From Gordonia terrae (lineage in GTDB: Bacteria; Actinomycetota; Actinomycetes; Mycobacteriales; Mycobacteriaceae): DNA of 64,000 bases. The notes beneath the pieces are model-generated. The model did no database searches. It worked only from the letters and a program-made list of their open reading frames with translations, and had not been told where the DNA came from. The stretch covers positions 5,208,001-5,272,000 of the forward strand of contig NZ_CP016594.1 in the NCBI RefSeq assembly GCF_001698225.1, given 5' to 3'. Below are positions 38,592-53,288 of this stretch, in pieces; the first letter of the stretch is position 1, and each line of letters starts with the position of its first letter. A program made the position numbers and the translations under genes.

Positions 38592-38954
38592 GTGACCGAC
38601 TTCGACCCACACTCATTTCACGCGGACTCGTTCGACGCGGACTCCTGGGCCGCACGTTTCATGCTCCTGAGCGACCCCAACCGCCTCCGACTCGTCGCGG
38701 AGATGCACGCGCGGCCGGGTTCCACGGTCGCCGAACTGGCCACCCGTATCGGCATCACCGAGAACGCCGCCTCCCAGTCGATCCGCAAGCTGCGCGACCA
38801 GGGGTGGGTCCGTTCGGAGAAGGTCGGCCGGATGGTCCACTACGAGGTCGTCGGCGACGCGATAGTGCATCGCATCCTGCACGACATCATCGGGGTCGGG
38901 CACCTCACCTCCGCAGATCGGTCGGATCACGCCCACCCGGTGACAACGGATTAG
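38592..38954 (+). CDS. ArsR/SmtB-family metal-type repressor
   Basis: A 120-residue winged-helix protein: AARFMLLSDPNRLRLVAEM, AELATRIGITENAASQSIRKLRDQG as the recognition helix region, and a beta wing RSEKVGRMVHYEVV. The N-terminus has two His (DPHSFHADSF) and the C-terminal helix reads HRILHDIIGVGHLT then DHAHP, a His/Asp pattern like the alpha-5 and tail metal sites of the Ni/Co sensors NmtR and KmtR. It is divergent from a NikA/DppA-type importer, so nickel or cobalt-dependent repression of uptake is a reasonable inference. GTG at 38592 follows AGGAGG at a good distance. Confidence 0.85.
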   Translation: MTDFDPHSFHADSFDADSWAARFMLLSDPNRLRLVAEMHARPGSTVAELATRIGITENAASQSIRKLRDQGWVRSEKVGRMVHYEVVGDAIVHRILHDIIGVGHLTSADRSDHAHPVTTD

Positions 38955-38965
38955 AACACGTTCTA
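38952..38965. promoter_or_regulatory. KstR-type operator
   Basis: TAGAACACGTTCTA fits the KstR consensus TNNAACNNGTTNNA exactly and is palindromic except for the two central bases. It ends 11 nt before the GTG start of the HsaD-like hydrolase. KstR represses cholesterol catabolism genes in mycolata. Confidence 0.65.
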
Positions 38966-38976
38966 GTCTGGTCGAC

Positions 38977-39834
38977 GTGGATGTCACCTTCGATGCGACC
39001 AAACGGGAACTGACGACCGATCAGGGCACACTGCGCTATCACGAGGCCGGCGACGCCGACGCACCGCCGCTGATCCTCTTGCACGGATCCGGGCCCGGCG
39101 TGACCGGCTGGCGCAACTACCGCGGGAACCTCGGGCGCTTCGCGCAGACACACCACTGCTTCGTCATCGAGTTCCCTGGCTTCGGGGTGAGCGACGCCGT
39201 CGAGGGCCACCCGGTTCTCACGGCCGGCGGCTCGGTTCTCCGGTTCATGGATGCACTCGGCATCGACAAGGCCGCGATGATCGGCAACTCGATGGGTGGG
39301 GTCGTCGGCGTCAACCTGGCGATCAAGAAGCCCGAGCGCGTCGAGAAGCTAGTCACCATCGGCGGTGTCGGCCCGAATGTGTTCAGCCCCAGCCCCAGTG
39401 AGGGCCTGCGCCTCCTCCAGGAGTTCACCGACGCCCCGGACAAGGACAAGCTGGTCCGCTGGCTCACGTCGATGGTCTTCGACCGCTCGTTGGTGACCGA
39501 GGAACTCATCGAGGAACGGTGGCAGGCCGCCATCAACCCAGACGCGCAGAAGACGGCGCAGATGATGTACAGCTCAGCGGCTTTCGAGATGCAGCAGCAA
39601 TTCATGGCCGCGTCGGACAACCCGCCGTACTGGGCGTCGATGCACAAGGTCGCCTGCCCGACGCTGCTGACCTGGGGCCGCGACGATCGAGTCAGCCCAC
39701 CCGACATGGCGATGGTCCCGATGCGCCTCATCCCCGACGCGGAGCTGCACATCTTCCCGAAGTGCGGGCACTGGGTGATGATCGAGGCCAAAGCCGCCTT
39801 CGAGGCGACGGTGGGGGCCTTCCTCGCGCGATGA
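38977..39834 (+). CDS. Alpha/beta hydrolase, meta-cleavage product hydrolase (HsaD/BphD/MhpC-like)
   Basis: A 285-residue C-C bond hydrolase. Catalytic Ser105 is in GNSMGG, Asp236 in WGRDDRVSP and His265 in KCGHWVMIE; the oxyanion region LLHGSGPGVTGW and the lid segment are family-typical. These enzymes split 2-hydroxy-6-oxo-dienoates produced by extradiol dioxygenases, and such a dioxygenase is encoded at 44126. A KstR-type palindrome directly upstream suggests control by the steroid repressor or a related one. GTG start at 38977 has no clear ribosome site, so the mRNA may be nearly leaderless. The MarR gene follows by 18 nt. Confidence 0.9.
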   Translation: MDVTFDATKRELTTDQGTLRYHEAGDADAPPLILLHGSGPGVTGWRNYRGNLGRFAQTHHCFVIEFPGFGVSDAVEGHPVLTAGGSVLRFMDALGIDKAAMIGNSMGGVVGVNLAIKKPERVEKLVTIGGVGPNVFSPSPSEGLRLLQEFTDAPDKDKLVRWLTSMVFDRSLVTEELIEERWQAAINPDAQKTAQMMYSSAAFEMQQQFMAASDNPPYWASMHKVACPTLLTWGRDDRVSPPDMAMVPMRLIPDAELHIFPKCGHWVMIEAKAAFEATVGAFLAR

Positions 39835-39852
39835 TCCACTAACCTCGCCACC

Positions 39853-40392
39853 ATGGATGGTGTCGACGTCATCGTGTCCCACTGGGCCGTCGCCCGGCCC
39901 GAGCTCGACGTCTCGGCGCTCAAGGTGTTCGGCCGGCTCCACCGCAGCTTCCTCGTCTACAAGGCGCGTATCGCCTCGACCTTCGACGAGCACAACATCA
40001 CCGACTCCGGCTTCGACGTCCTCGCGTGTCTGCGCCGAGCCGTCCCCGACCATCGCCTGACGGCAGGCGAACTCGCCGAGCAGACACTTGTCACCACCGG
40101 CGGTCTGTCCCTGCGCGTCAGACGCCTCGAGGACGCCGGATTCGTCACGCGCACCCGAGATCGGGCCGACGCACGAGTGGTCTACGTCGAGCTGACCCCC
40201 GAGGGCGCCGCACTCGTCGACCGCATCGCCGACGAGCACTTCGCGAAGCTCCGCGTGATGCTCGCCGAACTCTCCGAGGACGAGGCAGCCGACCTCGCCC
40301 GGCTCCTGGGCGCGCTCGAGCACTCCGCTCGTTTCGCGGTTCTCGGCGATGGCCTCGATCCCGGCGAAGCGGACCCCATCGCCGCGGTCTGA
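39853..40392 (+). CDS. MarR family transcriptional regulator
   Basis: A 179-residue MarR protein: dimerisation helices at both ends, the winged helix with LTAGELAEQTLVTTGGLSLRVRRLEDAG and wing TRTRDRADARVVYVELTPEG. MarR members of this kind bind aromatic or CoA-linked ligands and release a palindromic operator. Two near-identical palindromes lie 130-170 nt downstream in the promoter of the catabolic operon, which makes it the likely controller of that operon. It probably shares a transcript with the HsaD-like hydrolase. Confidence 0.92.
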   Translation: MDGVDVIVSHWAVARPELDVSALKVFGRLHRSFLVYKARIASTFDEHNITDSGFDVLACLRRAVPDHRLTAGELAEQTLVTTGGLSLRVRRLEDAGFVTRTRDRADARVVYVELTPEGAALVDRIADEHFAKLRVMLAELSEDEAADLARLLGALEHSARFAVLGDGLDPGEADPIAAV

Positions 40393-40523
40393 CGCTGCGA
40401 TCGAAACTTTTTCCGCGGCGTCGGTGATGGCCGACACACCGTGTGTGACCTGCATCTCTTCCATTTCGGACGCGTAAATCCCACGTAACGAGGTCCTGTA
40501 GTGGGGTTCTTCGCGGTTGACCT

Positions 40524-40535
40524 CTTAGCGCTAAG
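40524..40535. promoter_or_regulatory. Operator O1 (perfect palindrome), probable MarR site
   Basis: CTTAGCGCTAAG is a perfect 12-nt palindrome directly upstream of the candidate -35 element. A near copy is found 25 nt further on. Confidence 0.6.
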
Positions 40536-40537
40536 GC

Positions 40538-40566
40538 TTTACAACTGTCTTAGCGCAAAGATATTT
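40538..40566 (+). promoter_or_regulatory. Candidate promoter of the catabolic operon
   Basis: TTTACA at 40538-40543 and ATATTT at 40561-40566 are 17 nt apart, a good sigma-70-type layout 37 nt before the aldehyde dehydrogenase ATG. The region is distinctly A/T-rich. Operator O1 flanks it and O2 fills the spacer. Confidence 0.55.
40549..40560. promoter_or_regulatory. Operator O2, probable MarR site
   Basis: CTTAGCGCAAAG matches O1 at 11 of 12 positions. It lies between the candidate -35 and -10, so a bound repressor would block RNA polymerase. Confidence 0.55.
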
Positions 40567-40602
40567 GGTTCGCCCTCGGCCATCACCTCCGAACGGATTC
40601 AC

Positions 40603-42123
40603 ATGACCCTCGTGACGAGCACCTCCACCCATCCCGGGATCGACGCCCGCGATCTCGACGACCGCATCTACGTCGGCGGGCACTGGGAGGTCGGCGCCGG
40701 AAACCTGATCGAGTCCGTGAACCCGGCGACGGGTCAGGTCTTCGCGACCCTGCACGGGGCCACTCCCGCCGACGTCGACACCGCGGTCCGCACCGGGCTC
40801 CGCGCCGCCCACGAGAGCGGCTGGGCGAGTGCGCTTCCCCACGAGCGCGCGGCAGTCCTGCACCGGATCGGCGACGGTATCGACGCTGCGCGAGATCGCA
40901 TCGCGCGGCTGCAGACCCTCGACACCGGCAAGACCCTCGGCGAGACATCGGCTTTGGCGGCGAGTGCGGCGAACACCTTCCGGTACATGGCGGCTGCGGC
41001 GGAGACCTCCGACGGCACGCTCACGACCCCGCGCGGCCCGTGGCTCACGATGTCCACGCACCGCCCGATGGGTGTCGTCGGTGCCATCACCCCGTGGAAC
41101 TCGCCGATCGCCTCCGACGCGCAGAAGTTGGCCCCCGCGCTGGCCGCGGGCAACGCGGTGGTCAGCAAGCCGCCGGTGTGGGCGCCCTGGGTGACCTTGC
41201 TCCTGGCCCGCATCTGCGAAGAGGCCGGCCTGCCCCGCGGTGTCCTGTCCGTCCTCCCGGGCCCGGGACGGACCGTCGGCGAGGCCCTGGTCCGCCACCC
41301 CGACGTCGCGAAGGTGACCTTCACCGGCGGGACGAGCACCGGGCGTCACCTCGGCCGGATCGCCGCCGACAAGCTCATGCCGATCACCCTGGAGCTGGGC
41401 GGCAAGTCACCGACCATCGTCTTCGCCGACGCCGACCTCGAACGCGCCGTACAGGGCGTGCTGTACGGGATCTTCTCCTCCAGCGGCCAGAGCTGCATCG
41501 CCGGTTCACGAGTGTTCGTGCAGCGCAGCGTGTTCGATGCTTTCACGGACGATCTGGTGGGACGCGCCGGCCGGTTGCGGATGGGTCCCGGTACCAATCC
41601 GGACACCGACGTCGCCCCGATGATCTCGGCCGCGCACCGCGACTCGGTGGCCGACACGGTAGCCCGAGCGGTGGCCGACGGTGCCCGAGTGCGTTGCGGT
41701 GGCGCGGTTCCCGTCGACGGTGCGTTGGCCGACGGCTGGTACTACCCGCCGACCGTACTGACCGGCGTCGCCAACACCGACCGGATCAGCCAGGAGGAGA
41801 TCTTCGGGCCGGTCGCGGTGGTCATCCCGTTCGACGACGAGGCCGACGTCATCGCGCAGGCCAACGACACCGTCTACGGCCTGGCCTGCGGCGTGTGGAC
41901 CGAGGACTACCGGCGTGCGCTGCGGATCGGTGACGCCGTGGACGCCGGAACCGTCTGGGTCAACACCTACAAGCAGTTCTCCATCTCGACCCCGTTCACC
42001 GGACTCCGCGACAGCGGACTGGGCACCGAGAAGGGCCGTGAGGCGATCCGCCAGTACTCCGACCAGAAGAGCATCTACCTCGACCGCAGCGACGAGCCGA
42101 TCGCGTGGGGTCGCCAGCCGTGA
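40603..42123 (+). CDS. NAD-dependent aldehyde dehydrogenase (semialdehyde type)
   Basis: A 506-residue ALDH with catalytic Cys298 in SSGQSCIAGSR, general-base Glu264 in LELGGKSP, the NAD fold VVGAITPWNSPI and FTGGTSTGRHL, and a final STPFTGLRDSG. It resembles enzymes that oxidise hydroxymuconic, aminomuconic or betaine-type aldehydes. First gene of the catabolic operon; ATG at 40603 was preferred because a longer reading would translate the operators. A role in oxidising a ring-cleavage semialdehyde fits the extradiol dioxygenase in the same operon. Confidence 0.93.
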   Translation: MTLVTSTSTHPGIDARDLDDRIYVGGHWEVGAGNLIESVNPATGQVFATLHGATPADVDTAVRTGLRAAHESGWASALPHERAAVLHRIGDGIDAARDRIARLQTLDTGKTLGETSALAASAANTFRYMAAAAETSDGTLTTPRGPWLTMSTHRPMGVVGAITPWNSPIASDAQKLAPALAAGNAVVSKPPVWAPWVTLLLARICEEAGLPRGVLSVLPGPGRTVGEALVRHPDVAKVTFTGGTSTGRHLGRIAADKLMPITLELGGKSPTIVFADADLERAVQGVLYGIFSSSGQSCIAGSRVFVQRSVFDAFTDDLVGRAGRLRMGPGTNPDTDVAPMISAAHRDSVADTVARAVADGARVRCGGAVPVDGALADGWYYPPTVLTGVANTDRISQEEIFGPVAVVIPFDDEADVIAQANDTVYGLACGVWTEDYRRALRIGDAVDAGTVWVNTYKQFSISTPFTGLRDSGLGTEKGREAIRQYSDQKSIYLDRSDEPIAWGRQP

Positions 42124-42170
42124 CCGGCCGGACCGTGCACGCGCCCACTTCGACGAAAGGAACCACATCC

Positions 42171-42554
42171 ATGACCACAACTGCCGCAACCGACTTCGCC
42201 GCAGAAGACCAGAACACCGCGCACCCGTACAGTCCCGCATTCGCCGTCGCCGGTTTCGGCTTCGTCTCCGGCGCACTGTCGGTGGATGAGAACGGGGTTG
42301 CCGTACCGGGTGTCGACGCCGCCCTCGACGCGGCGATGGCCCGGCTCGGCGAGCGCCTGGCCACGATCGACATGACCCTCGCCGATGTCGTCAAGACCAC
42401 CTACTTCGTCACCGACGTCTCGCTGCGCGATGCCGCGAACCGGCACTACGAGAGCGTCTTCGCCACGCCTCGCCCGGCCCGGTCGTTCGTCGAGGTCGCC
42501 GCGCTGCCCTACGGCGCGACCGTCGAGATCGAAGCCATCGCCCACACGTCCTGA
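42171..42554 (+). CDS. RidA family protein (first of two)
   Basis: A 127-residue RidA/YjgF protein with the FVSGALSVDENG strand, the LADVVKTTYFVTD helix-strand, PARSFVEVAALP containing the Arg that holds the substrate carboxylate, and VEIEAIA with the conserved Glu. RidA proteins deaminate enamines/imines; a branch of the family are 2-aminomuconate deaminases in aromatic degradation. AAAGGA precedes the ATG at 42171. Its place right after the aldehyde dehydrogenase suits such a role. Confidence 0.9.
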   Translation: MTTTAATDFAAEDQNTAHPYSPAFAVAGFGFVSGALSVDENGVAVPGVDAALDAAMARLGERLATIDMTLADVVKTTYFVTDVSLRDAANRHYESVFATPRPARSFVEVAALPYGATVEIEAIAHTS

Positions 42555-42607
42555 CCGAGCGTCCGGCACCGACCGAATCCACCAGAACACCGAGAGGACC
42601 AACCATC

Positions 42608-43126
42608 ATGACCGCACCAGAGAAGACCATTGCCGATCTCGAGCAGCAGATCGACTCCTGCATCGCCAGCCGCGAGACCCGGCACGAGGACTGGGACACA
42701 CTGGGTTTCCAGGCCGCCGCCGGCGGCGACCGCTTCAAGCGTGCCCAGATCCGCTACATCGGCTCGGGCGCCACCGGCAACCACGAGAACGACAGCCGGA
42801 CTCTTCCGTCGGATCACTTCACGTTCTCCAACATGCGCCTGCCCGCCGGTGCCGTCGGTCCCGAGCACACCCACCACGACGTCGAAGAGGTGTTCTTCGT
42901 CCTCGAGGGCGAGCTCGAGGTCGCCGTCCACGACGTGGAGGACGGCACCAAGAAGGCCGTTCGTCGCCTCGGCTACCGCGACCTGATCCGCGTGCCCGCA
43001 GGCGTCCCCCGCAGCCTCGCCAACGTCGGCGACACCGACGCGCTGTTCTGCGTGATCATCGGCGCCGAGAAGCCGCAGCTGCCCACCTATCCGCCGAGCT
43101 CGGAGATGTTCGGCGTCACCCGCTGA
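42608..43126 (+). CDS. Cupin domain protein
   Basis: A 172-residue single cupin. Motif 1 is HTHHDVEEVFFVLEGELEV with metal-binding His/His/Glu and motif 2 is VPAGVPRSLANVGDTDALF, where the second-motif His is missing (Pro-Arg). It may be a ring-modifying isomerase or dioxygenase, or a non-catalytic binder. The N-terminal 60 residues have no match I recognise. It is part of the operon, 53 nt after the first RidA gene. Confidence 0.88.
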   Translation: MTAPEKTIADLEQQIDSCIASRETRHEDWDTLGFQAAAGGDRFKRAQIRYIGSGATGNHENDSRTLPSDHFTFSNMRLPAGAVGPEHTHHDVEEVFFVLEGELEVAVHDVEDGTKKAVRRLGYRDLIRVPAGVPRSLANVGDTDALFCVIIGAEKPQLPTYPPSSEMFGVTR

Positions 43127-43165
43127 ACCTCGCTCCACCCGAACCGAACCCGAGAGGTGTCCACC

Positions 43166-44116
43166 ATGTCCGCAGACACGACGAGAGTCCTTCGCGTGCA
43201 CCAGAAGACCTGGGAGGCCGACGGCGTCACGAGCATCACCCTCGTGGATCCGTCCGGCGCCGAACTCCCGCGCTGGGAACCGGGATCGCATGTCGCGCTT
43301 CGTCTGCCGGACGGACTCGTTCGGGAGTACTCGCTGTGCTCGGCGCCGGAGGACACGTCACGATGGACCGTGGCCGTCCTCCGGGCCGAGAAGTCACGCG
43401 GCGGTAGCAGCTACGTGCACGATCGGCTGTCCATCGGCGCCGAGATCGAGGTCGACGGCCCGCGCAATGCCTTCTCGATCGACCCCGACGCCGCGCACCA
43501 CATCCTCATCGCCGGCGGCGTCGGTATCACCCCCATCGTCGCGATGATGCGCCGGCTGGAGTCCGAGGGCCGATCGTGGCAGATGCTCTACGCGGGCCGG
43601 TCCCGACGGTCGATGGCCTTCGTCGACGAGGTGTCCGCGCACTCGACGTCCGTCATCCACGCCGACGACGAGCGAGGCGGGTTGCCCGATCTGCCTGCGC
43701 TGTTCGCGGGAGCGCCATCCGGGTCGGTGGCGTACTGCTGCGGCCCGGCCGCCCTCCTCGACGCCGTTGCCGGCATCATCCCGCCGGAGATCTCGCTGCG
43801 CAGCGAACGTTTCGCCGCACCCGTCGTGGAGGTGGACCCCGGCGGGGACACCGCGTTCGACGTCGTTCTCGACCGCACCGGACAGCGGATCGCGGTACCG
43901 GCCGAGAAGTCCGTGCTCGACGCCCTGGCCGACGCCGGCGTCGACGTGCCCAGCTCCTGCACGGAGGGCATCTGCGGCACCTGCGAGATCGGGGTCGTCA
44001 AGGGCGATCTCGACCACCGCGACTTCGTGCTCACCGACACCGAACATGCGAGCGGTCAGACGATGCTTCCCTGCGTCTCGCGTTGCCGCTCAGCCGAACT
44101 CGTACTCGACCTCTAG
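43166..44116 (+). CDS. Oxygenase reductase component (VanB/phthalate dioxygenase reductase type)
   Basis: A 316-residue three-domain reductase: FMN-binding barrel (about 10-105, REYSLCSAPED), NAD domain (about 110-220, HHILIAGGVGITPIVAMM, then VAYCCGPAALLDAV) and C-terminal plant-type [2Fe-2S] ferredoxin with Cys265, Cys270, Cys273 and Cys303. It passes electrons from NADH to a Rieske oxygenase, here surely the product of 49980-51086. GAGAGG lies 8 nt before the ATG. No separate ferredoxin is encoded, as expected for a two-component class IA/VanAB system. Confidence 0.94.
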   Translation: MSADTTRVLRVHQKTWEADGVTSITLVDPSGAELPRWEPGSHVALRLPDGLVREYSLCSAPEDTSRWTVAVLRAEKSRGGSSYVHDRLSIGAEIEVDGPRNAFSIDPDAAHHILIAGGVGITPIVAMMRRLESEGRSWQMLYAGRSRRSMAFVDEVSAHSTSVIHADDERGGLPDLPALFAGAPSGSVAYCCGPAALLDAVAGIIPPEISLRSERFAAPVVEVDPGGDTAFDVVLDRTGQRIAVPAEKSVLDALADAGVDVPSSCTEGICGTCEIGVVKGDLDHRDFVLTDTEHASGQTMLPCVSRCRSAELVLDL

Positions 44117-44125
44117 GGGAATCCC

Positions 44126-45124
44126 GTGCTCTACTCCCAGCTTCCCGTCCTCACCGAGCAACCGGTGTGCCGTCTGCGCAGCCTGCGCTCGGTCACCCTG
44201 AGCGTGCCCGATCCCCTGGCCTCCCGGGACTTCTATCACGAGGTGTGGGGTCTGACCACCGTCGAGGAGGACGGTGACCGGTTCTGGCTGCGCGCCACCG
44301 GCACCGAACACCATGTCCTCGATCTCCGCCCCGGTGACGCGAATGCCCTGGGTGGCTTCAGCTTCGCACTGGGGACGCCGCGGGAGGTCGACGATGCCGC
44401 CCGCGCACTCGAGCGGATCGGCGTGCCGCTGCTCCGTGAACCCGGACCGCTCGACGACGCCGGGGGCGGATACGGCCTGGCCCTCGTCGACCCGGAGGGG
44501 CGCACCGTCGAATTGTCGGCGGACGTGCACGCGGTGTCGTCGCAGGAGCCCGCGGGGCGTCGTGCCATCCCGCGCAAGATCGCGCACGTCGTCCTGAACA
44601 CCACCGACATCGAGCGGATCACGGCGTTCTACACCCAGGTCCTCGGGATGCGGGTGTCGGACTGGTCCGAGCGCCAGATGTCGTTCCTGCGCTGCAACTC
44701 CGAACATCACGTCATCGCGCTGAATCAGGCGCCCTGGCCGGCCCTGAACCACGTCGCCTACGAGATGACCTCCATCGACCACTTCATGCGCGGCATCGGC
44801 AACCTGCGCTCCCACGGGATCAGCCCGCAGTGGGGACCGGGCCGCCACGGTCCCGGCGACAACACCTTCTCGTACTTCACCGATCCGGCGGGTCTGGTCT
44901 GCGAGTACACCTCCGAGGTCGCCCAGATCGACGAAGACGCCTGGCTGTGCCGGACCTGGCGCCGCACACCCGAACTGTCCGATCAGTGGGGTACCGCGGG
45001 CCCGCCGACGACCACCGTCCGCTCGGCCATGGCCGGCATCCCCGACCACGGCGCGAGCTCCCTGGTGACCCCGAGCGACCCGGACTACTTCATCCATCTG
45101 CCCCAGACGGTGGGCGTGGCATGA
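44126..45124 (+). CDS. Type I extradiol ring-cleavage dioxygenase (two-domain VOC)
   Basis: A 332-residue VOC protein with two tandem modules. The second carries the iron triad His154 (KIAHVVLN), His209 (LNHVAYEM) and Glu260 (VCEYTSE), spacings like BphC-type enzymes. It opens a catechol-like ring next to the hydroxyls. GTG at 44126 is preceded by AGGGGA at 6 nt, and the stop overlaps the next hydrolase ATG as ATGA, so cleavage and product hydrolysis are translationally coupled. The catecholic substrate cannot be identified from sequence. Confidence 0.93.
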   Translation: MLYSQLPVLTEQPVCRLRSLRSVTLSVPDPLASRDFYHEVWGLTTVEEDGDRFWLRATGTEHHVLDLRPGDANALGGFSFALGTPREVDDAARALERIGVPLLREPGPLDDAGGGYGLALVDPEGRTVELSADVHAVSSQEPAGRRAIPRKIAHVVLNTTDIERITAFYTQVLGMRVSDWSERQMSFLRCNSEHHVIALNQAPWPALNHVAYEMTSIDHFMRGIGNLRSHGISPQWGPGRHGPGDNTFSYFTDPAGLVCEYTSEVAQIDEDAWLCRTWRRTPELSDQWGTAGPPTTTVRSAMAGIPDHGASSLVTPSDPDYFIHLPQTVGVA

Positions 45125-45921
45125 CCACCACCGTCACCGTGCTCGACCGCGTGCACGTCGTCGCGCACCCGTCGAGCCGCGAGATCCGGAGCCGGCACAG
45201 CGTGGTGCTGCTCCACGGGATCGGCGGCGGCGCCACGTCGTGTAGCCCACTGGCCGCACGGCTGGCCGCCGCCGGTCTCGACTGCTGGTGCCCCGACGCC
45301 CCCGGTTACGGGCGCTCGGCCGATCCCCGGCCGGGCATCGGCCCCGTCGAGGAGATGGCCGAACTGATCGAAGCGCTCGTTCCGGGCGAGCCGGTCGTAC
45401 TCCTCGGCACGTCCTGGGGCGGTGTGATCGCCATGGATCTGGCGCTGCACCGGCCCGATCTCGTCGCCGCGCTCGTCATCGCCGACAGCACCCGCGGTTC
45501 CGGGGTCACCGCCGAGCGGGCCGCGGGCATGCTCGCCCGCATCCCCGACCTCGTCGACCGGGGTGCCGCCGCAGTCGCTGCCGACCGCGCCGACGCGCTC
45601 ACGGCACCCGACTGCGACCCGGCGGTCACCGCCGAGGTCCGCGCCACCATGGCGGAGGTCCGCGAGCCCGGCTTCGCCGCCGCAGCCCGGTATATGGCCA
45701 CGACCGATCTCGGACCCGACCTCGCCCGACTCGCCCGCCCGGCCCTCGTTCTCGTCGGTGAGCGCGACACCATCACCGGCGTCGACGAATCACGACTCCT
45801 CGCCGACCAGATCCCCGGCGCGCAGCTGCGGATCGTCCCCGATGCCGGCCACGCCGCGATCCAGGAACAACCCGACGTCGTCGCCGGCCACGTCCTGGAC
45901 TTCGTCGGGATGCTGTCATGA
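45121..45921 (+). CDS. Alpha/beta hydrolase (ring-cleavage product hydrolase candidate)
   Basis: A 266-residue alpha/beta hydrolase with nucleophile Ser98 in GTSWGG, oxyanion segment LLHGIGGGATSCS, acid in VGERDTITG and base His in DAGHAAIQE. Start codon overlaps the dioxygenase stop (ATGA) and its own stop overlaps the SDR start, so it is the closest partner of the extradiol dioxygenase. It differs clearly from the HsaD-like hydrolase at 38977, so the two may act on different intermediates. Confidence 0.9.
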   Translation: MTTTVTVLDRVHVVAHPSSREIRSRHSVVLLHGIGGGATSCSPLAARLAAAGLDCWCPDAPGYGRSADPRPGIGPVEEMAELIEALVPGEPVVLLGTSWGGVIAMDLALHRPDLVAALVIADSTRGSGVTAERAAGMLARIPDLVDRGAAAVAADRADALTAPDCDPAVTAEVRATMAEVREPGFAAAARYMATTDLGPDLARLARPALVLVGERDTITGVDESRLLADQIPGAQLRIVPDAGHAAIQEQPDVVAGHVLDFVGMLS

Positions 45922-46661
45922 GCGCCGGGACGATGGTGGTGACCGGCGGCGGCCGCGGACTCGGTCGTGCCATCGCCGAACGTCTCGGCGCCGACGGGCA
46001 CCGACTGGCGATCGCCGAACGGGATCCGGAGACCGCGTTCGCGGCCGAGGCCGCATTGCGCGACGCCGGTCACGACGCCCGCGCGATCGTCACCGACATC
46101 GCCGACGTCGACGCCGTCCGCGCACTCGCCGACCGTCTCGACGCTGACGGCGATCACGTGATCGGCCTCGTCAACAACGCGGCGATCGCCGACGGCGTGG
46201 GCGGCGCGACGTTCTTCGAGCTCGCCGACGACGAGTTCGGGCGGCTGACCGACGTCAACGTCCGCGGCACCTGGTCGGTCACGAAGTACCTGTGGCCGTT
46301 GCTGTCCCGCTCGCGGGGCGCCGTGGTCAACATCGCCTCCGATGTCGCGATGTACGGGTCGCCGCGACTCGTGCACTACGTGTCGTCCAAGGCGGCGGTC
46401 ATCGGGATGACGCGCTCGATGGCCCGCGATGCCGGGCCGCACGGAGTTCGCGTGAATGCCGTTGCGCCGGGCCTGATCCGGGTCGAGGCCACCGAAGGCG
46501 TTCCCGAAGACCGGTACCGCACCTACGCCGCAGGGCGTGCACTCGACCGCGAACAGACCCCGCAGGACGTCGCCGGAGTGGTCCGCTTCCTACTGTCCGA
46601 GGACGCCGCCTTCGTCACCGGTCAGACCATCGTCGTCGACGGCGGATTCATCTTCCGCTGA
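45918..46661 (+). CDS. Short-chain dehydrogenase/reductase
   Basis: A 247-residue classical SDR: TGGGRGLGRAIAE cofactor motif, NNAAIADG, catalytic Ser in IVNIASDVAMYG-like segment and active YVSSK, then PGLIRVEAT. It should oxidise an alcohol or a dihydrodiol in the pathway using NAD(P). ATG at 45918 overlaps the hydrolase stop as ATGA. Followed by a C-rich stretch before the second SDR. Confidence 0.92.
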   Translation: MSAGTMVVTGGGRGLGRAIAERLGADGHRLAIAERDPETAFAAEAALRDAGHDARAIVTDIADVDAVRALADRLDADGDHVIGLVNNAAIADGVGGATFFELADDEFGRLTDVNVRGTWSVTKYLWPLLSRSRGAVVNIASDVAMYGSPRLVHYVSSKAAVIGMTRSMARDAGPHGVRVNAVAPGLIRVEATEGVPEDRYRTYAAGRALDREQTPQDVAGVVRFLLSEDAAFVTGQTIVVDGGFIFR

Positions 46662-46681
46662 GCGACGCATCCACTTCGACT

Positions 46682-46724: not shown

Positions 46725-46737
46725 CCGAGGAGTACCC

Positions 46738-47517
46738 ATGGACCTGCAGCTCGCCGGTCGCCGAGTGTTGATCACCGGCGCGAGCTCCGGGATCGGCCTC
46801 GCCACCGCCCGGTTGCTCGCCGAGGAAGGCGCCCGCCTGGCGCTCTGTGCCCGTGACGAGGACCGTCTTCGTTCCGCGACAGCCGATCTCGCCGCGATCA
46901 CCGACGTGGTCACCGCGTCATGCGATGTCACCAGCCGCGCGTCCGTCGATGCCTTCGTCGCCACCGCCGTCGACCGGCTCGGTGGTCTCGACGGCGTGGT
47001 CTGCAACGCGGGGCGGTCGCTCATGCGCACCCTCGACGAGACCACCGACGAGGAGATCCGCGACGAGTTCGACCTGAAGATCTTCGGTGCGCTGCACGTC
47101 ATACGCGCCACCCGCGCCGCGCTCGCGGCGTCGGACCGCGGTGCCGTGGTGATCGTCAACGCCATCCTGTCCCGGCAACCCGAAACCCGCCTGGCCGTCA
47201 CGTCGGCGGCCCGGGCGGGCCTGCTGAACCTGTCGAGCTCGCTCGCCGAGGAGCTCGCGACCGACGGGACACGGGTCAACTCGGTGCTGCTCGGCCTCAT
47301 CGACACCGGACAGTGGCAGCGCCGGTTCGTCGAGAGCGGCGCCGACGACTTCGCGGCCTGGAGTGCCGAGATCGCCGACGACCGGGGAATCGCACTGGGC
47401 CGCTTCGGTTCCGCCGACGAACTCGCATTTCCCATCACCACCCTGCTCTCGCCGCGGAACAGCTACACGACCGGCGCCACGCTCGAGGTCGGCGGCGGGG
47501 TGCACCGCTATGTCTGA
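46738..47517 (+). CDS. SDR-fold protein lacking the catalytic Tyr-Lys pair
   Basis: A 259-residue SDR with an intact cofactor motif TGASSGIGLATAR and CNAGRS, but the active-site YxxxK is replaced by TxxxR in LAVTSAARAGLLNL. The rest (VNSVLLGLIDTGQW, GATLEVGGGV) is family-typical. It may use another residue set, act as a reductase with shifted chemistry, or be a structural partner of the first SDR. ATG at 46738 has GAGGAG 6 nt upstream. Confidence 0.88.
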   Translation: MDLQLAGRRVLITGASSGIGLATARLLAEEGARLALCARDEDRLRSATADLAAITDVVTASCDVTSRASVDAFVATAVDRLGGLDGVVCNAGRSLMRTLDETTDEEIRDEFDLKIFGALHVIRATRAALAASDRGAVVIVNAILSRQPETRLAVTSAARAGLLNLSSSLAEELATDGTRVNSVLLGLIDTGQWQRRFVESGADDFAAWSAEIADDRGIALGRFGSADELAFPITTLLSPRNSYTTGATLEVGGGVHRYV

Positions 47518-47565
47518 CCCCGGCAGAGCCCGACCAACCCAGCCCAGCAACAGGAGAACCAGCCG

Positions 47566-49290
47566 ATGACCGAACACACCGGAAGCCGCCGCCGACCGAC
47601 CGGCGGTGACGTCCTCGTCGATGTGCTCCGCCGGCACGGCGTCACCACCGTCTTCGGGGTCATCAGCATCCACAACCTCCCGCTTGTCGAAGCCGTCGAC
47701 CGCGAACTCGACTTCGTCGAGATGCGGCACGAGGCGGCCGCGGTCAACGCCGCCGACGGATTCGCCCGCGCGTCCGGCGGTCTCGGCGTTGCGCTGACCA
47801 GTACCGGTACCGGAGCAGGTAACGCTGCCGGTTCGATGGTGGAGGCCCTGACCGCGGGCAGTCGCGTCCTGCACATCACCGGCCAGATCGAGAGCGAGTT
47901 CCTCGCCCCCGGGCGTCCGGCCGCGAGTCGCGGTGTCATCCATGAGTTCCCGGGTCAGCCGCAGATGCTCGACGCGATCTCGGCGTACTCCACGACCATC
48001 ACCGAGGCCAAGGACGTCGAGGCCGAACTCGAGTCCGCGATCGCGCATGTCCTCGCCGCACCCACGGGACCGGCCAGCGTCGAATGGCCCACGGACCTCC
48101 AGTATCTCGCCTCCCCGGACGCCCAGCGACCGGCGCCGTCGGTCACGGTGACGACGCCCGTCGCCGACGCGGAGTCCGTCGCCCGCGCCGCCGATCTGCT
48201 CCGCACCGCCGAGCGGCCCCTGCTGTGGCTGGGCGGCGGTGCGGCCGGCGCCGGTGAGCAGATCGCCGAGTTCGCTCGATTCCTCGGCGCGGGCATCGTC
48301 ACCAGCAACTCCGGGCGCGGAATCGTCGCCGAGGACGTCCCCCTCGTCATCGGCAACTTCGCGACCACCCCCGCGGTGCGGGCACTGCTCGACGACGCCG
48401 ACGTGCTCCTCGCCGTCGGTACCCATTTCCGATCGAACGAGACCGCGTCCTACTCGCTCTCACTGCCGGAGAACATCATCCAGATCGACGTCGAACCCAC
48501 GACGATCGGCCGCGTCTACCCGGCCACGGTCGGGCTCGTCGGAGACGCCGCACCGACGATCACTGCTCTGCTGGCCGAGCTGGACGCGGTCGCGACCGCC
48601 GACGAGTGGCCGCGCCGCGTGTCCGCCGTGCGCGAGGAGGTCCGCGCCGATCTCACGACCTACATCGGTGGCTACGCCGAGATTTGCACGGCGATCCGCG
48701 ATGCGCTACCGCGTCGATCGGTGATCGCCCGCGACGTGACGATCCCGTCGAGCCAGTGGGGCAACCGCCTGCTGCCGATCTACGAGCGCGGCACCAACGT
48801 CTTCCCCCTCGGCGGCGGGATCGGGCAGGGACTCGCGATGGGGATCGGTGCGGCGCACGCCCGGCCCGACGCCCCGACCCTCGTCGTCGCCGGCGACGGC
48901 GGACTCGCCGTCCACCTCGGCGAGCTCGCCTCCCTGGCCGGGTCAGGTGCGCACGTCATCGTGCTGGTGTTCAACGACGGCGGGTACGGGGTACTGCGGA
49001 ACATGCAGCAGAAGAACGGTTTCCGACGCTCCAGCGTCGACCTGCACACGCCGCGCTTCGACCTGCTCGCGGCAGCGATGGACATCCCCTACCGGCTCGT
49101 GCGCGGCCCGGGCGTCATCGCCGACGCCCTCGAGGCCGCGGTCAACCGCGGCGGCCCGTCGTTCATCGAGGTGGATGTCGAGGCGGTCGACCCCGCCCCC
49201 GGGCCGTTCGTCCCGCCGGTGCACGTCCCGTCTGAACTCGATTCCTCTGGGCTCAATTCCTCTGGGCTCGATTTCTCTGGGGCCCACTGA
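47566..49290 (+). CDS. Thiamine diphosphate-dependent enzyme (acetolactate synthase/benzoylformate decarboxylase superfamily)
   Basis: A 574-residue three-domain ThDP protein: PYR domain with catalytic Glu56 (RHEAAAVNAADGFAR), central domain with LLWLGGGAAGAGEQIAEF, and PP domain with the Mg/ThDP motif starting GDGG at 443-446 and the Asn about 27 residues later (VFNDGGYG). It should decarboxylate or carboligate a 2-keto acid of the pathway. The FAD-binding pattern of true acetolactate synthases is unclear. The C-terminus ends in a 15-nt tandem repeat. Its stop overlaps the next start (TGATG). Confidence 0.9.
   Translation: MTEHTGSRRRPTGGDVLVDVLRRHGVTTVFGVISIHNLPLVEAVDRELDFVEMRHEAAAVNAADGFARASGGLGVALTSTGTGAGNAAGSMVEALTAGSRVLHITGQIESEFLAPGRPAASRGVIHEFPGQPQMLDAISAYSTTITEAKDVEAELESAIAHVLAAPTGPASVEWPTDLQYLASPDAQRPAPSVTVTTPVADAESVARAADLLRTAERPLLWLGGGAAGAGEQIAEFARFLGAGIVTSNSGRGIVAEDVPLVIGNFATTPAVRALLDDADVLLAVGTHFRSNETASYSLSLPENIIQIDVEPTTIGRVYPATVGLVGDAAPTITALLAELDAVATADEWPRRVSAVREEVRADLTTYIGGYAEICTAIRDALPRRSVIARDVTIPSSQWGNRLLPIYERGTNVFPLGGGIGQGLAMGIGAAHARPDAPTLVVAGDGGLAVHLGELASLAGSGAHVIVLVFNDGGYGVLRNMQQKNGFRRSSVDLHTPRFDLLAAAMDIPYRLVRGPGVIADALEAAVNRGGPSFIEVDVEAVDPAPGPFVPPVHVPSELDSSGLNSSGLDFSGAH
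49237..49281. repeat. 15-nt tandem repeat at the end of the ThDP gene
   Basis: Three copies of CTCGATTCCTCTGGG with one or two changes encode LDSSG, LNSSG and LDFSG just before the stop. The A/T-rich unit contrasts with its surroundings and can vary without a frameshift. Confidence 0.85.
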
Positions 49291-49748
49291 TGACCGCCCC
49301 GGCCCTCTGGTGGGACGACGACATCGCGACGCGAGTGCGCTCGGGTGACCAGGCCCACGTCTTCGCCTCCGGCACCGACGTCGCCGACGCGATCGCCCTG
49401 GCCGTCGAGAACCCCGTCCTCGTGCTGAGCCTGATCCTGGCCGAGCCCGCGCCGCTCACCGCAGAGACAACGAATCTGCTCCCGTCCGTTCGGGTTCCGA
49501 CCCTGGTTCTCGCGTCGGCGCCGGACGCCGACACCGATCTCGATGCGGCGCAGACGCTCGCCGGCGACATCGACAACGGCGTCTTCGTCGTCCTCGACGG
49601 CGCGCCCGTCCCCGCGCACACCGAATGCCGGGAGTCCTTCGAGGAGTGGACCGTCTCGTTCGTCGCGATCGCCGAGGGCCTCGCCGCCCGTGACGGCCGC
49701 CTCCTCGCCCAGCCCACACCACTCATCGACGAAGGAGTACTCCGATGA
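49290..49748 (+). CDS. Hypothetical protein, alpha/beta-hydrolase C-terminal-like fragment
   Basis: A 152-residue protein. Residues about 60-125 (VRVPTLVLASAPDADTDLDAAQTLAGDI then VVLDGAPVPAHTECRESFEEW) read like the last third of an alpha/beta hydrolase, with the acid strand and a His near the end, but the nucleophile half is missing. The first 55 residues (WWDDDIATRVRSGDQAHV) match nothing I know. It is translationally coupled on both sides (TGATG before, ATGA after), so it is a real operon gene. It may be a small subunit or accessory protein. Confidence 0.7.
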   Translation: MTAPALWWDDDIATRVRSGDQAHVFASGTDVADAIALAVENPVLVLSLILAEPAPLTAETTNLLPSVRVPTLVLASAPDADTDLDAAQTLAGDIDNGVFVVLDGAPVPAHTECRESFEEWTVSFVAIAEGLAARDGRLLAQPTPLIDEGVLR

Positions 49749-49978: not shown

Positions 49979-49979
49979 C

Positions 49980-51086
49980 ATGACCACCACACAGCCCACC
50001 CCCGGCACCCGGTCCGCAACCCGCGAACGTCCCGCGCGACGCACACCGACCTACGCCGTCGGTACCCGTCGTCACCTCGACGCCGACGAGATCGCGGCGA
50101 CGGGCCTCCGGGACCGCTGGTACCCGATCCTCCCGTCGCGCATGCTCGAGCCCGGCGCGATGGTCCCGGTCCGCCGACTCGAGGTCGACTGGGTGCTGTT
50201 CCGCGACGCCCAGGGTCGGGTCCGCATGCTGGAGGACCGGTGCCCGCACCGCAGCGCTCCGTTGTCGGTCGGCCAACACCTCGGCGACCGCATCGCCTGC
50301 GCGTACCACGGTGTCCAGGTCGACGGAGAGGGCACCGTCGTGTCGGTGCCGGGCATGCCGGGATGTGCCCTGGAGGGCCGGCGGGCGACGGTGTCGCTCG
50401 AGGTGGTCGAGGCGGCCGACACGATCTTCGCCTTCCTGCCGCTGACCGCGGATTCGGTGCCGACCCCGTTCGTGTTGCCCGACCGGCTGTCCGATCCCGA
50501 GGTGTCCTGGTTCGGCAACTTCGCCGAGTGGGCGGGCCCGTGGCGGTTCTACATGGACAACGTCCTCGATCCCATGCACGGCGCGTTTCTGCACCGCAAC
50601 TCCCATTCGATGTTCGGTGGCGACACCTCGGCTCGGTTCCGCATCCGGGAGACCGACCGCGGCTTCTTCTTCGAGAAGACCGACCAGCGCGGCGTGAACT
50701 TCGACTGGGTGGAGTTCGTGCGCGGATCGATGGACTACGTCGACCTCGAGATCCCGTACGGCCCCGGCGCCGGCCCCGGCGGTGTGTTCGGGATCGTCGG
50801 GATGAGCACGCCCATCGACCGGTCGACGTCGGCGATCTTCCATTGGCGCACCCGGCGGGTGAGCGGATGGGAACGTGAGACCTGGCGGTTCCTGTACCGG
50901 ACCACGCTGGAGGCCAAGCACTGGGAGGTCCTCGAACAGGACCGGCTCGTCTTGGAGGCGCTCGCCGGTGACGCCGACCGTGAGGAGCACCTGTACCAGC
51001 ACGATCTCGGGGTCTCCCGGATTCGACGGATCTATCGCGCCGACGCCGTCGCCCAGGCCGAGCAACTCGTCGCAGCGAACGCATGA
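49980..51086 (+). CDS. Rieske non-haem iron oxygenase, alpha subunit (VanA type)
   Basis: A 368-residue oxygenase. The Rieske [2Fe-2S] cluster is bound by Cys88, His90, Cys107 and His110 (CPHRSAPL and CAYHGVQ); the mononuclear iron by His200 and His205 in DPMHGAFLH with bridging Asp197. Length and layout match vanillate O-demethylase and related monomeric-type oxygenases, which remove methyl groups or hydroxylate aromatic acids. Electrons would come from the reductase at 43166. ATG at 49980 follows the HTH gene closely, and the stop overlaps the next gene. Confidence 0.95.
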   Translation: MTTTQPTPGTRSATRERPARRTPTYAVGTRRHLDADEIAATGLRDRWYPILPSRMLEPGAMVPVRRLEVDWVLFRDAQGRVRMLEDRCPHRSAPLSVGQHLGDRIACAYHGVQVDGEGTVVSVPGMPGCALEGRRATVSLEVVEAADTIFAFLPLTADSVPTPFVLPDRLSDPEVSWFGNFAEWAGPWRFYMDNVLDPMHGAFLHRNSHSMFGGDTSARFRIRETDRGFFFEKTDQRGVNFDWVEFVRGSMDYVDLEIPYGPGAGPGGVFGIVGMSTPIDRSTSAIFHWRTRRVSGWERETWRFLYRTTLEAKHWEVLEQDRLVLEALAGDADREEHLYQHDLGVSRIRRIYRADAVAQAEQLVAANA

Positions 51087-51418
51087 GCACCGACGGGTCG
51101 ATGCTGCTCACCGTGGTGCTGCGCCACGATCAGAGCCAGAACCTCGACCAGTTGCAGGGTCGGCTCGACGAGAACGACTGGTGGCACGGCTTTCCGCCCG
51201 AGGGATGCGAGGTCGTCTCCTGGGTCGTGGCCATGGGTATCGGTCAGATCGTCACCCTCCGCCTACCGGCGGACCGGCTGCCCGCGGTGAACGTCGAACT
51301 GGAACGCCGGGCGTGGGGCACCTTCGCCACCGACTTCTACCCGACGTACGACTTCCTGCCGGTCCGCGAACGACTGACGCGTGAGTCCGATGCGCGACGT
51401 TCGGCGGTGACCTCATGA
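51083..51418 (+). CDS. Small hypothetical protein of the catabolic operon
   Basis: A 111-residue protein, no TM or signal. The pattern LLTVVLRHDQSQNLDQLQGRLDENDWW, VVSWVVAMGIGQIVTLRLP and FYPTYDFLPVRERL suggests an alpha-beta sandwich of the dimeric ferredoxin-like barrel kind, as in muconolactone isomerase or EthD-like proteins. ATGA overlaps link it to the oxygenase before and the RidA gene after. Function unknown; possibly an isomerase of a ring-cleavage product. Confidence 0.75.
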   Translation: MSTDGSMLLTVVLRHDQSQNLDQLQGRLDENDWWHGFPPEGCEVVSWVVAMGIGQIVTLRLPADRLPAVNVELERRAWGTFATDFYPTYDFLPVRERLTRESDARRSAVTS

Positions 51419-51819
51419 CCCGGGTCGGACACCCCGACGTCGCGGAGCCGCCCCGTCGGGACATGTTCAGCAACGCCCGCGTCGTCGGCGACCAGTTCTT
51501 CCTCTCGGGGATGCACGCCGGCGGGCCGGACGGTCCGGTGGGTGGCGACGACTCCCACGCGCAGGCGGTCGAGACCTTCCGCCGCGTGCGCGCACTGACG
51601 GAGGCGTGCGGCGCTTCCGTCGACGACATCGTCGTGTTGCGCATCTACGTCACCGACATCGCCGACAAGGCAGCTGTCGGACGCGCCCGGAGCGCGGTTT
51701 TCTCCGGGGACTTCCCGTGTTCGACCCTCGTCGAGGTGTCGGCACTGGTCGAGCCGGGCCTCAGCGTCGAGGTCGAGGCACAGGGATTTCTCCCGAAGGC
51801 CGCGCCCGCGGCCGACTAG
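51415..51819 (+). CDS. RidA family protein (second of two)
   Basis: A 134-residue RidA-fold protein: FFLSGMHAGGPDG, DDIVVLRIYVTDIADKAAV and VEVEAQGF with the conserved Glu. The position of the substrate-binding Arg is taken by CSTLVEVSALV (Ser/Thr), so it is unlikely to be a normal imine deaminase and may catalyse an isomerisation or hydrolysis. It differs from the first RidA in the operon, which keeps the Arg. ATGA overlap with the preceding gene. Confidence 0.87.
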   Translation: MTRVGHPDVAEPPRRDMFSNARVVGDQFFLSGMHAGGPDGPVGGDDSHAQAVETFRRVRALTEACGASVDDIVVLRIYVTDIADKAAVGRARSAVFSGDFPCSTLVEVSALVEPGLSVEVEAQGFLPKAAPAAD

Positions 51820-51870
51820 AATCACTCGAACCGGCGTCAGCCACGCCGACTACACCCCGAGGACGCCATC

Positions 51871-53229
51871 GTGAGCGGACCAACTCTCAACTCCAGCCCG
51901 AACAACTCAGCACCGGCCGTCGACAGACCCAACTGGCCGGTCCTGATCCTCGCCTTCATCGCCGTCGTGCTCGACGGCTACGACACCATCGCCCTCGGCC
52001 TTTCAGTGCCGGCGCTCAAGGAGGACTGGGGTGTCCCCGCCTCCCACTTCACCCCCGCCCTGTCGCTGACCAGCCTCGGTGTCGCTCTGGGTTACATCGC
52101 GGTCGGCCGACTCACCGCACGGTTCGGCTGCCGCAAGGTCATCCTCGCCGCGGTCGTCGTGTTCACGATCGGCAGTCTGCTGACGGCATGGGCCGGCAAC
52201 ATCGTCGAGCTGAGCGCGCTGCGCCTGATCACCGGCTTCGGTCTCGGCGCGGTCATGCCGGCGGCCGTGGCGCAGGCAACTGCACTCAACCCCGCCCGGC
52301 ACCGGCAGTCGATCGCGGTGTTCGTCACGATGGGCATCTCGATGGGTGCGCTCATCGCCGGACTGCTGGGTACTCGGCTGGTGTCGGCATACGGCTGGCC
52401 GTCGGTGTTCGTCGCGGGCGCCATCGCCTCTGCGGCCCTGTTCCCCTTCCTCTGGATGTGGCTGCCCGACGAGCGCACGCTGACCGGTGTGACCCCGGGC
52501 TCGGAGGCCCGCCACCACGCGGCCGTGGCCCGGTTGTTCGACCCCGAGGTGCGCGGTCGGACCCTGCTGCTCTGGGGCTTCGCCTTCATGGTGTTCTCGG
52601 TCTTCTACATCTTCTCGTCCTGGCTGCCCACCCTCCTGACGAGTTACGGCTTCAGCACGGGTCTGGCACCACTCGGGTCGGCGGCACTGGGTGTCGGCAG
52701 CATCGTCGGTGCGGGTGTGCTGATCCTCGGCGCGACCCGATACCGGATGAGCTCGATCCTCGCCGGCACCACGGTGGCGGCCATCGTGTTCCTAATCCTG
52801 TCCGCGTTCCTCGGCGCCGACAAGGCGTTGCTGCTCTTGGTGTTCGGCGGCGTCGGGCTCGGACTGCAGGCCGGCATGATCGGGCAGGCCGCCGTGGCGG
52901 TGTCGATCTACCCGCAGGCCACCGCCGCGACGGGAGTCGGTTGGGCCTCCTCGATGGGTCGCCTCGGCTCGGTGGTCGGCCCGATCGTCGGCGGCGCCCT
53001 GATCGGACTCGGTCTGTCGACGAGCGCCATCGTGCTGATCGCGTGCGCCCCGGTCGCGGTGGCGCTTGCACTCGTCCTGCTGCTCCGCCGCACGGAATCG
53101 AAGGTGCCCGAAGATGCCGCCGCGACGGGACGGCTCGACGGTCCGGAAGCCGGGGACCGCACGACGGTCGGCGGACCGGCGATGACCAGCCAGACGATGA
53201 ACGGCCACGCGATCGGCGGGCAGGCCTGA
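51871..53229 (+). CDS. MFS transporter, aromatic acid:H+ symporter family (PcaK/BenK-like)
   Basis: A 452-residue transporter with 12 TM helices. TM1 carries VVLDGYDTIALGLSVP, the DGxD motif needed for aromatic acid uptake in PcaK; the loop 2-3 motif reads GRLTARFGCRKV, and the loop 8-9 and TM10-11 segments are typical. It should import the aromatic substrate of the pathway with protons. GTG start with GAGGA about 8 nt upstream. Last gene before a strong terminator. Its 60-residue tail is Asp/Glu/Thr-rich. Confidence 0.93.
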   Translation: MSGPTLNSSPNNSAPAVDRPNWPVLILAFIAVVLDGYDTIALGLSVPALKEDWGVPASHFTPALSLTSLGVALGYIAVGRLTARFGCRKVILAAVVVFTIGSLLTAWAGNIVELSALRLITGFGLGAVMPAAVAQATALNPARHRQSIAVFVTMGISMGALIAGLLGTRLVSAYGWPSVFVAGAIASAALFPFLWMWLPDERTLTGVTPGSEARHHAAVARLFDPEVRGRTLLLWGFAFMVFSVFYIFSSWLPTLLTSYGFSTGLAPLGSAALGVGSIVGAGVLILGATRYRMSSILAGTTVAAIVFLILSAFLGADKALLLLVFGGVGLGLQAGMIGQAAVAVSIYPQATAATGVGWASSMGRLGSVVGPIVGGALIGLGLSTSAIVLIACAPVAVALALVLLLRRTESKVPEDAAATGRLDGPEAGDRTTVGGPAMTSQTMNGHAIGGQA

Positions 53230-53244
53230 CGCGGCGAACCCATT

Positions 53245-53288
53245 CGACGAGCGGTGCACCGGGTATCACCCCGGTGCACCGCTCGTCG
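53245..53288 (+). terminator. Strong terminator of the catabolic operon
   Basis: Perfect 19-nt arms, CGACGAGCGGTGCACCGGG and its complement, with a 6-nt loop TATCAC. It lies 16 nt after the MFS stop. No U-tract. Confidence 0.75.

Follow-up and report, generated by a model that had tools for sequence, protein, structure and literature searches.

A conserved and widespread bacterial gene cluster that may encode the oxidative breakdown of kynurenate

A 64,000-nucleotide stretch of the complete 5.70-Mb genome of the soil actinobacterium Gordonia terrae (contig NZ_CP016594.1, positions 5,208,001 to 5,272,000; hereafter the window) carries a cluster of 16 plus-strand genes at 38977–53229. Judging from its gene families, their conserved residues and their recurrence in other genomes, we consider it probable that the cluster is a real, widespread and conserved system that degrades a nitrogen-bearing, fused aromatic acid. 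Its most likely substrate is kynurenate, with xanthurenate and quinaldate entering in relatives, an assignment whose chances we put at about even. The fuller proposal, which we advance tentatively and with somewhat less than even confidence, is that the cluster comprises the genes for the oxidative catabolism of kynurenate and xanthurenate, with a fixed lower pathway, exchangeable entries, a second ring opening by a cupin that would be new chemistry, and an occurrence in both Actinomycetota and Pseudomonadota, including human-associated genera. We infer the kynurenate substrate and every reaction assigned below from the genes.

Compared by sequence, the cluster is not a private assembly, and closely similar gene sets are widespread. 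An extradiol alignment scan of named genome contigs gave 210 confirmed matches, the best 80 of which yielded 79 distinct loci, all from Actinomycetota by title; the closest named locus, in Gordonia sp. 'Campus', has an extradiol enzyme 99% identical to that of the window. A core of six genes, for the extradiol dioxygenase, a thiamine diphosphate (ThDP) enzyme, an aldehyde dehydrogenase (ALDH), a cupin, a hydrolase and a divergent short-chain dehydrogenase/reductase (SDR), is complete in 71 of the 79 loci, and the frequency of each gene is listed in Table 1. An earlier note on this DNA had called the enzyme set mixed and unfamiliar, a description that holds for named pathways but not for gene content, similar sets being widespread. 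The cluster is nevertheless patchy, since the gene for its 111-amino-acid (aa) protein was found in 10 of 101 sampled genomes of relatives, all of the window's own genus.

Related sets that include an aspartate dehydrogenase (AspDH) homologue are found on plasmids or chromids of Nitratireductor, Pseudosulfitobacter, Paracoccus, Vibrio nigripulchritudo, Novosphingobium, Caballeronia, Acinetobacter baumannii, Klebsiella pneumoniae, Burkholderia and Cupriavidus. None of these sets is a mere copy. Compared with the window, the ThDP enzymes of the proteobacterial sets are 38–42% identical, the ALDHs 52–61% and the second, divergent SDR (SDR2) 38–45%; the extradiol enzyme is 41–44% identical in Nitratireductor, Pseudosulfitobacter, Paracoccus and Vibrio. 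The sets in K. pneumoniae (L112) and A. baumannii (L111) lie in human-associated bacteria, and that of Klebsiella adjoins tkt-epd-pgk-fbaA.

All of the enzyme families named in the earlier note were recovered by Pfam and NCBIfam scans, and the extradiol triad that it had read as His154, His209 and Glu260 is conserved (H154 in 87 of 87 aligned sequences, H209 and E260 in 86 of 87, the remaining row being a gap). The note had also proposed a complete route of import, oxygenation, meta-cleavage and hydrolysis. Import, ring hydroxylation and meta-cleavage are supported; ordinary meta-cleavage and hydrolysis are unsupported because no hydratase or aldolase family (2-hydroxypentadienoate hydratase, 4-hydroxy-2-oxovalerate aldolase) occurs among the 16 cluster proteins, to which the search was confined. 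Extradiol attack on a pyridine-fused catechol ring would leave an alpha-keto acid on the pyridine, and a ThDP decarboxylase followed by an ALDH, instead of a hydratase and an aldolase, would be explained by this product. SDR2 has threonine (T156 in 82 of 85 sequences) and arginine (R160 in 84 of 85) where the catalytic tyrosine and lysine are usual, and is therefore probably not an ordinary alcohol dehydrogenase; our guess is that it may reduce a C=C bond. A 152-aa hydrolase half lacks the nucleophile part; 49 of the 79 loci retain it as a short gene, and it is perhaps a partner of hydrolase 2.

The genes for the Rieske oxygenase, the VanB-type reductase and the classical SDR (SDR1) are gained and lost together. 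By tblastn, all three are present in 68 of the 79 loci, all are absent from 6, and 5 are mixed: L050, which a contig end cuts, L056, L065 (broken frames), L080 and L102. L065, from the complete genome of Nocardioides sp. B-3, has many cluster genes split into two frames, possibly by sequencing errors. The Cys and His ligands of the Rieske protein are conserved in 80 of 80 sequences, and D199, H202 and H207 in 79–80 of 80. The linkage of the three genes fits a dihydroxylation followed by a dihydrodiol dehydrogenase, and not O-demethylation; the O-demethylation by VanAB that had been suggested earlier is unsupported because the oxygenase and reductase come and go with an SDR.

A flavin hydroxylase, found in 34 of the 79 loci, may offer another way in. 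A protein 62–64% identical to that of Nitratireductor occurs in 5 of the 6 loci without the Rieske module, as against 27 of the 68 with it; the sixth, L101, has none within its flanks. The Vibrio locus (L024) has a flavin hydroxylase, with a match covering 77% of its length, and lacks a Rieske oxygenase. The enzyme resembles tropone 2-monooxygenase and 6-hydroxynicotinate 3-monooxygenase (NicC-like), and its substitution for the Rieske module would fit a phenolic entry, such as xanthurenate, into the same catechol. In 18 of the 79 loci a molybdenum hydroxylase lies in the flank (in L061 just a fragment at the end of the locus), with 4-hydroxybenzoyl-CoA reductase and next quinoline 2-oxidoreductase as its best Protein Data Bank (PDB) matches. 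One is annotated in the Caballeronia NK8 pNK84 cluster; matches to its small subunit (41–42%) occur beside both Cupriavidus clusters, and a match to its large subunit (27%) beside one of the two. This enzyme would fit hydroxylation of the heterocycle further upstream, from quinaldate to kynurenate. Taken together, the loci suggest that the entries into one catechol are exchangeable, either dioxygenation with dihydrodiol oxidation or phenol hydroxylation; we go no further than this because the sample of six is small and related.

The nitrogen end of the cluster is marked by AspDH and RidA proteins. At least one of AspDH, RidA 1 and RidA 2 is present in 78 of the 79 loci, and AspDH or RidA 1 in 77. 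The AspDH homologue, present in 60 of the 79 loci, is the commonest nitrogen enzyme in relatives, ahead of the two RidA types with 41 and 40; that of Nitratireductor exceeds the cut-off in three models of aspartate dehydrogenase, and that of Streptomyces matches the TM1643 aspartate dehydrogenase with an E-value of about 1e-27. RidA 1 keeps throughout its alignment the arginine at the position that we take to bind the imino-acid carboxylate in the deaminating Rid subgroup, and RidA 2 does not (Table 1). The idea of a nitrogen-bearing intermediate, raised earlier with an aminomuconate as the example, is supported in general, with aminomuconate less likely than iminosuccinate because of the prevalence of AspDH. 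As a control, we searched six contexts of related extradiol enzymes (37–43% identical) outside the cluster by tblastn at 1e-5. The ThDP, AspDH, RidA and cupin references matched in none of the six. Four contexts include an annotated gene of the fumarylacetoacetate-hydrolase family, which belongs to the usual lower route; weak SDR, ALDH (33%) and flavin-hydroxylase (28–37%) matches do occur.

These families can be arranged into a route. Kynurenate (4-hydroxyquinoline-2-carboxylate) would be imported by the major facilitator superfamily (MFS) protein and converted to its 7,8-cis-dihydrodiol by the Rieske oxygenase, as kynurenate 7,8-dioxygenase, with the VanB-type reductase; SDR1, as dihydrodiol dehydrogenase, would then form 7,8-dihydroxykynurenate. 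The extradiol enzyme, as 7,8-dihydroxykynurenate 8,8a-dioxygenase, would open the benzene ring and leave a pyridine with an alpha-keto-acid side chain, which SDR2 may reduce with NAD(P)H, the ThDP enzyme decarboxylate to an aldehyde, and the ALDH, as formylethyl-dihydroxypicolinate dehydrogenase, oxidise to 5-(2-carboxyethyl)-4,6-dihydroxypicolinate. We speculate that the cupin, using O2, and hydrolase 2, as an amide or C–C hydrolase, could cleave the pyridine ring and hydrolyse the amide, giving 2-oxoglutarate and iminosuccinate. Cupin-type dioxygenation beside the ring carbonyl would yield 2-oxoglutarate, whereas opening by hydrolysis alone would give glutarate. The nitrogen, C2 with its carboxylate, C3 and C4 of the leftover ring of kynurenate would supply the atoms of iminosuccinate, which would suit RidA 1, as an iminosuccinate deaminase giving oxaloacetate and ammonia, and AspDH, which in relatives would give aspartate. 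The fixed lower pathway would consist of the extradiol enzyme, SDR2, the ThDP enzyme, ALDH, cupin, hydrolase and RidA or AspDH, and the entries would be the Rieske/VanB/SDR1 module for kynurenate, the NicC-like hydroxylase for xanthurenate and the molybdenum hydroxylase for quinaldate. All 12 proposed reactions balance; SDR2 and the cupin are the weakest assignments. A review states that pseudomonads convert kynurenate to glutamate, alanine and organic acids (PMC11354673), and the first two could arise from the proposed end products by transamination.

Several observations weigh against this scheme. No tryptophan 2,3-dioxygenase (TDO) was found in the window genome, with TDO matches in 32 of the 101 genomes and none in its own genus, nor in the 79 loci (two actinobacterial references), nor in four 40-kb Burkholderia and Cupriavidus stretches at 1e-8; kynurenate would therefore need to be imported. 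A phylum sample gave extradiol matches at 1e-60 in 8 of 396 genomes, 3 with at least 60% identity; TDO occurs in 6 of these 8, against 84 of the 396 overall, but never near the extradiol gene: it lies on a different contig or at a distance of over 0.9 Mb. This pattern is compatible with imported kynurenate, yet gives it no support. The presumed metal ligands of the cupin are H87, H89 and E93 or E94, and Arg135 replaces the usual fourth histidine; the alphaproteobacterial loci L021–L023 (Nitratireductor, Pseudosulfitobacter and Paracoccus) carry, in place of the small cupin, a 315-aa one that is 29–34% alike. The window genome has no close flavin hydroxylase (best match 33%), and the exchange of that enzyme with the Rieske module rests on six partly related loci. 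It has no AspDH either, so that RidA 1 must suffice there, and locus L097 has neither AspDH nor RidA at the thresholds used. The 79 loci were chosen by extradiol similarity and are phylogenetically dependent. Lastly, the extradiol enzyme is 27–34% identical in Caballeronia, Burkholderia, Cupriavidus, Klebsiella, Acinetobacter and Novosphingobium, so most proteobacterial sets possibly do not share the window's exact substrate.

Other readings would account for part of the same evidence. The module evidence marks a class of substrate and not one compound, and NicC-like and molybdenum hydroxylases have several N-heteroaromatic substrates, so the cluster might instead serve another fused acid of this kind, such as the carboxylate of a different quinoline, of an indole or of a related ring system, by the same type of route (dihydroxylation, extradiol cleavage that puts an alpha-keto acid on the heterocycle, decarboxylation by the ThDP enzyme, ALDH and imine hydrolysis). 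We regard this as unlikely, though it carries real weight; the AspDH homologue would best fit a ring yielding a C4 imino diacid, as 4-oxo-pyridine-2-carboxylates do. It is distinctly improbable that a monocyclic methoxy- or amino-aromatic acid passes through O-demethylation by VanAB, meta-cleavage and ordinary lower-pathway hydrolysis, perhaps by way of an aminomuconate. The Rieske protein does match Pfam VanA_C above its cut-off, and RidA-type enzymes are known for aminomuconate, but such a pathway is at odds with the missing hydratase and aldolase families among the 16 proteins, with the AspDH of 60 relatives and with the co-occurrence of SDR1 and the Rieske oxygenase, an O-demethylase needing no SDR.

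A role in detoxification or signal quenching, instead of growth, could explain the patchy distribution and would suit the signalling character of kynurenate and xanthurenate, the former being described as a signalling compound in animals and an aryl hydrocarbon receptor ligand; since the route to central metabolites looks complete and has importers, we hold this to be very improbable. Least credible of all is a variant of the lumichrome (riboflavin) pathway, with direct decarboxylation of a heterocyclic imino acid by the ThDP enzyme. The Lum system also joins a ThDP decarboxylase, a molybdenum hydroxylase, a Rieske oxygenase and an extradiol enzyme, but it uses a two-protein ThDP enzyme (LumK/LumL), a P450, pyrimidine-ring hydrolases and a four-component Rieske system (PMC12746152, PMC12752717). 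The 16 cluster proteins include a single three-domain ThDP chain and an alpha-only Rieske oxygenase, and no P450 or amidohydrolase family.

The features of the cluster are collected in Table 1. About 15 same-strand genes had been counted earlier; the strand was right and the count is 16, the MarR gene having been missed. Nor do the genes mostly overlap by 1–4 nt, as had been stated: 5 of the 15 junctions overlap, by 1–4 nt, and the others are spaced by 9–231 nt, with gaps of 210 and about 230 nt among them. The strong closing hairpin that had been noted is borne out. Hydrolase 1 looks accessory because, among the fetched loci, its label recurs only in the near-identical L026.

Table 1. Cluster features in 5′ to 3′ order, with window coordinates and presence among the 79 loci
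Feature	Coordinates	Strand	Evidence	Loci of 79
Alpha/beta hydrolase 1, HsaD-like	38977..39834	+	NCBIfam HsaD 270.9 bits, below cut-off 400	
MarR-family regulator	39853..40392	+	Pfam MarR_2 and MarR above cut-off	60 (MarR-like gene)
Operator-like pair CTTAGCGCTAAG (40524) / CTTAGCGCAAAG (40549)	40524..40560	+	starts 25 bp apart; flank promoter-like site	
Aldehyde dehydrogenase	40603..42123	+	PF00171 534.7 bits; E264, C298 in 80/80	75
RidA 1, imine-deaminase Arg kept	42171..42554	+	PF01042; Arg104 in 42/42	41
Cupin	42608..43126	+	PF07883; residues kept in 81–82 of 82	77
PDR/VanB-type reductase, 2Fe-2S C-terminal	43157..44116	+	Fer2 and NAD_binding_1 above cut-off	72
Two-domain extradiol dioxygenase	44126..45124	+	PF00903; triad kept; PDB 3b59, E 3.6e-68	79 (by construction)
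Alpha/beta hydrolase 2	45121..45921	+	S98, D216, H244 in 86/86	78
SDR1, classical	45918..46661	+	S141, Y154, K158 in 76/76; travels with Rieske and VanB	71
SDR2, divergent active site	46738..47517	+	NCBIfam PRK07062 311 bits, cut-off 266	77
ThDP enzyme, PRK07064 family	47566..49290	+	650 bits, cut-off 495; E56, GDG in 82/82	76
152-aa alpha/beta-hydrolase-like half	49290..49748	+	weak PcaCD C-terminal match; alignment	49
Alpha-only Rieske oxygenase	49980..51086	+	Rieske and VanA_C above cut-off (VanA_C 32.2 vs 23.5)	72
111-aa protein, ferredoxin-like fold	51083..51418	+	model pLDDT 91.7; no family in Pfam and NCBIfam scans	41
RidA 2, without deaminase Arg	51415..51819	+	PF01042; Ser there in 41/42, gap in 1	40
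MFS importer, aromatic-acid/H+ symport-like	51871..53229	+	MFS_1 above cut-off; TIGR00895 227 bits, below cut-off 418.6	18
Perfect 19-bp hairpin, 3′ of last gene	53245..53288	+	-45 kcal/mol over 71-nt stretch; no T-run	

A scan of 38500–53800 found a single sigma-70-like site, at 40538–40565 (mean of shuffles 0.6). This promoter-like site and the operator-like pair lie between the MarR and ALDH genes, so the main transcript is likely a MarR-controlled unit of 14 genes from ALDH to MFS, with hydrolase 1 and MarR upstream. The exact pair, at the identical 25-bp spacing, precedes ALDH in 13 other loci (L026–L036, L039 and L060); L037 and L038 have it with one or two mismatches in each site, and looser single copies are found in many further loci. 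Copies of the motif in L054 (1637, exact) and L068 (2336, two mismatches) sit near an ABC substrate-binding gene or a flavin hydroxylase gene, suggesting a shared regulon. By eye, the cluster is bordered on the left by a reading frame at 37770–38954 whose end resembles an ArsR-type helix-turn-helix, with an oligopeptide-ABC-transporter-like set on the minus strand beside it (about 34.2–38.5 kb), and is followed at about 53.9–54.76 kb by an SPFH/band-7-like frame.

If the kynurenate reading is true, the cluster would be the long-missing genetic basis for the breakdown of this tryptophan-derived, nitrogen-containing double-ring acid. To our knowledge, kynurenate 7,8-dioxygenation, the dehydrogenation of the dihydrodiol and the 8,8a-cleavage of 7,8-dihydroxykynurenate exist as Enzyme Commission (EC) entries without sequences, and these three old activities would gain genes. 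Consumers of kynurenate would become readable from genomes, an unassigned pyridine-ring opening would have candidate enzymes, and the presence of AspDH and RidA genes in aromatic operons would be explained.

Among known systems, the lum cluster likewise unites its shared enzyme classes in one N-heteroaromatic route and differs further by a pyrone intermediate (PMC12746152). The auxin operon iad of Variovorax shares a Rieske oxygenase, MarR control and a nitrogen heterocycle. It has large and small Rieske subunits (IadD/IadE) and a reductase, IadC (PMC10374108), whereas the Gordonia cluster has an extradiol enzyme and no Rieske beta-subunit family among its 16 proteins. An alpha-only Rieske protein with VanA_C and a VanB-type reductase recall the vanillate O-demethylase VanAB, but here the oxygenase is tied to an SDR and apparently swapped for a flavin hydroxylase in relatives. 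The meta-cleavage clusters hpa, bph, mhp and hsa have in common with ours a two-domain type I extradiol enzyme and an alpha/beta hydrolase; the Gordonia cluster departs from them in having no hydratase or aldolase and in having a ThDP enzyme, ALDH and RidA or, in relatives, AspDH. The routes with a 2-aminomuconate deaminase also place a RidA-fold deaminase beside a ring-cleaving dioxygenase, and probably differ in substrate logic and in the AspDH partner.

The closest likeness that we see is to the bacterial 'quinoline pathway' of kynurenate. Its intermediates were reportedly described by Horibata, Hayaishi and Dagley around 1961–63, in work of which PMC11354673 cites one paper, and we know the oxidative kynurenate/xanthurenate route only as enzymology since the 1960s; searches of the open-access literature gave no gene assignment for it. 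Its order of dihydroxylation, dihydrodiol oxidation, extradiol cleavage, reduction, decarboxylation and aldehyde oxidation matches the families of the cluster. At family level, the dioxygenase and dihydrodiol dehydrogenase have counterparts in the Rieske, VanB and SDR1 proteins, with conserved residues, and the alpha-keto decarboxylase and ensuing aldehyde dehydrogenase in the ThDP enzyme and ALDH (76 and 75 of the 79 loci); the extradiol dioxygenase has a predicted counterpart with PF00903 and an intact 2-His-1-Glu triad. The second ring opening is our own proposal, and the end products that we propose would be compatible with the formation of glutamate and alanine.

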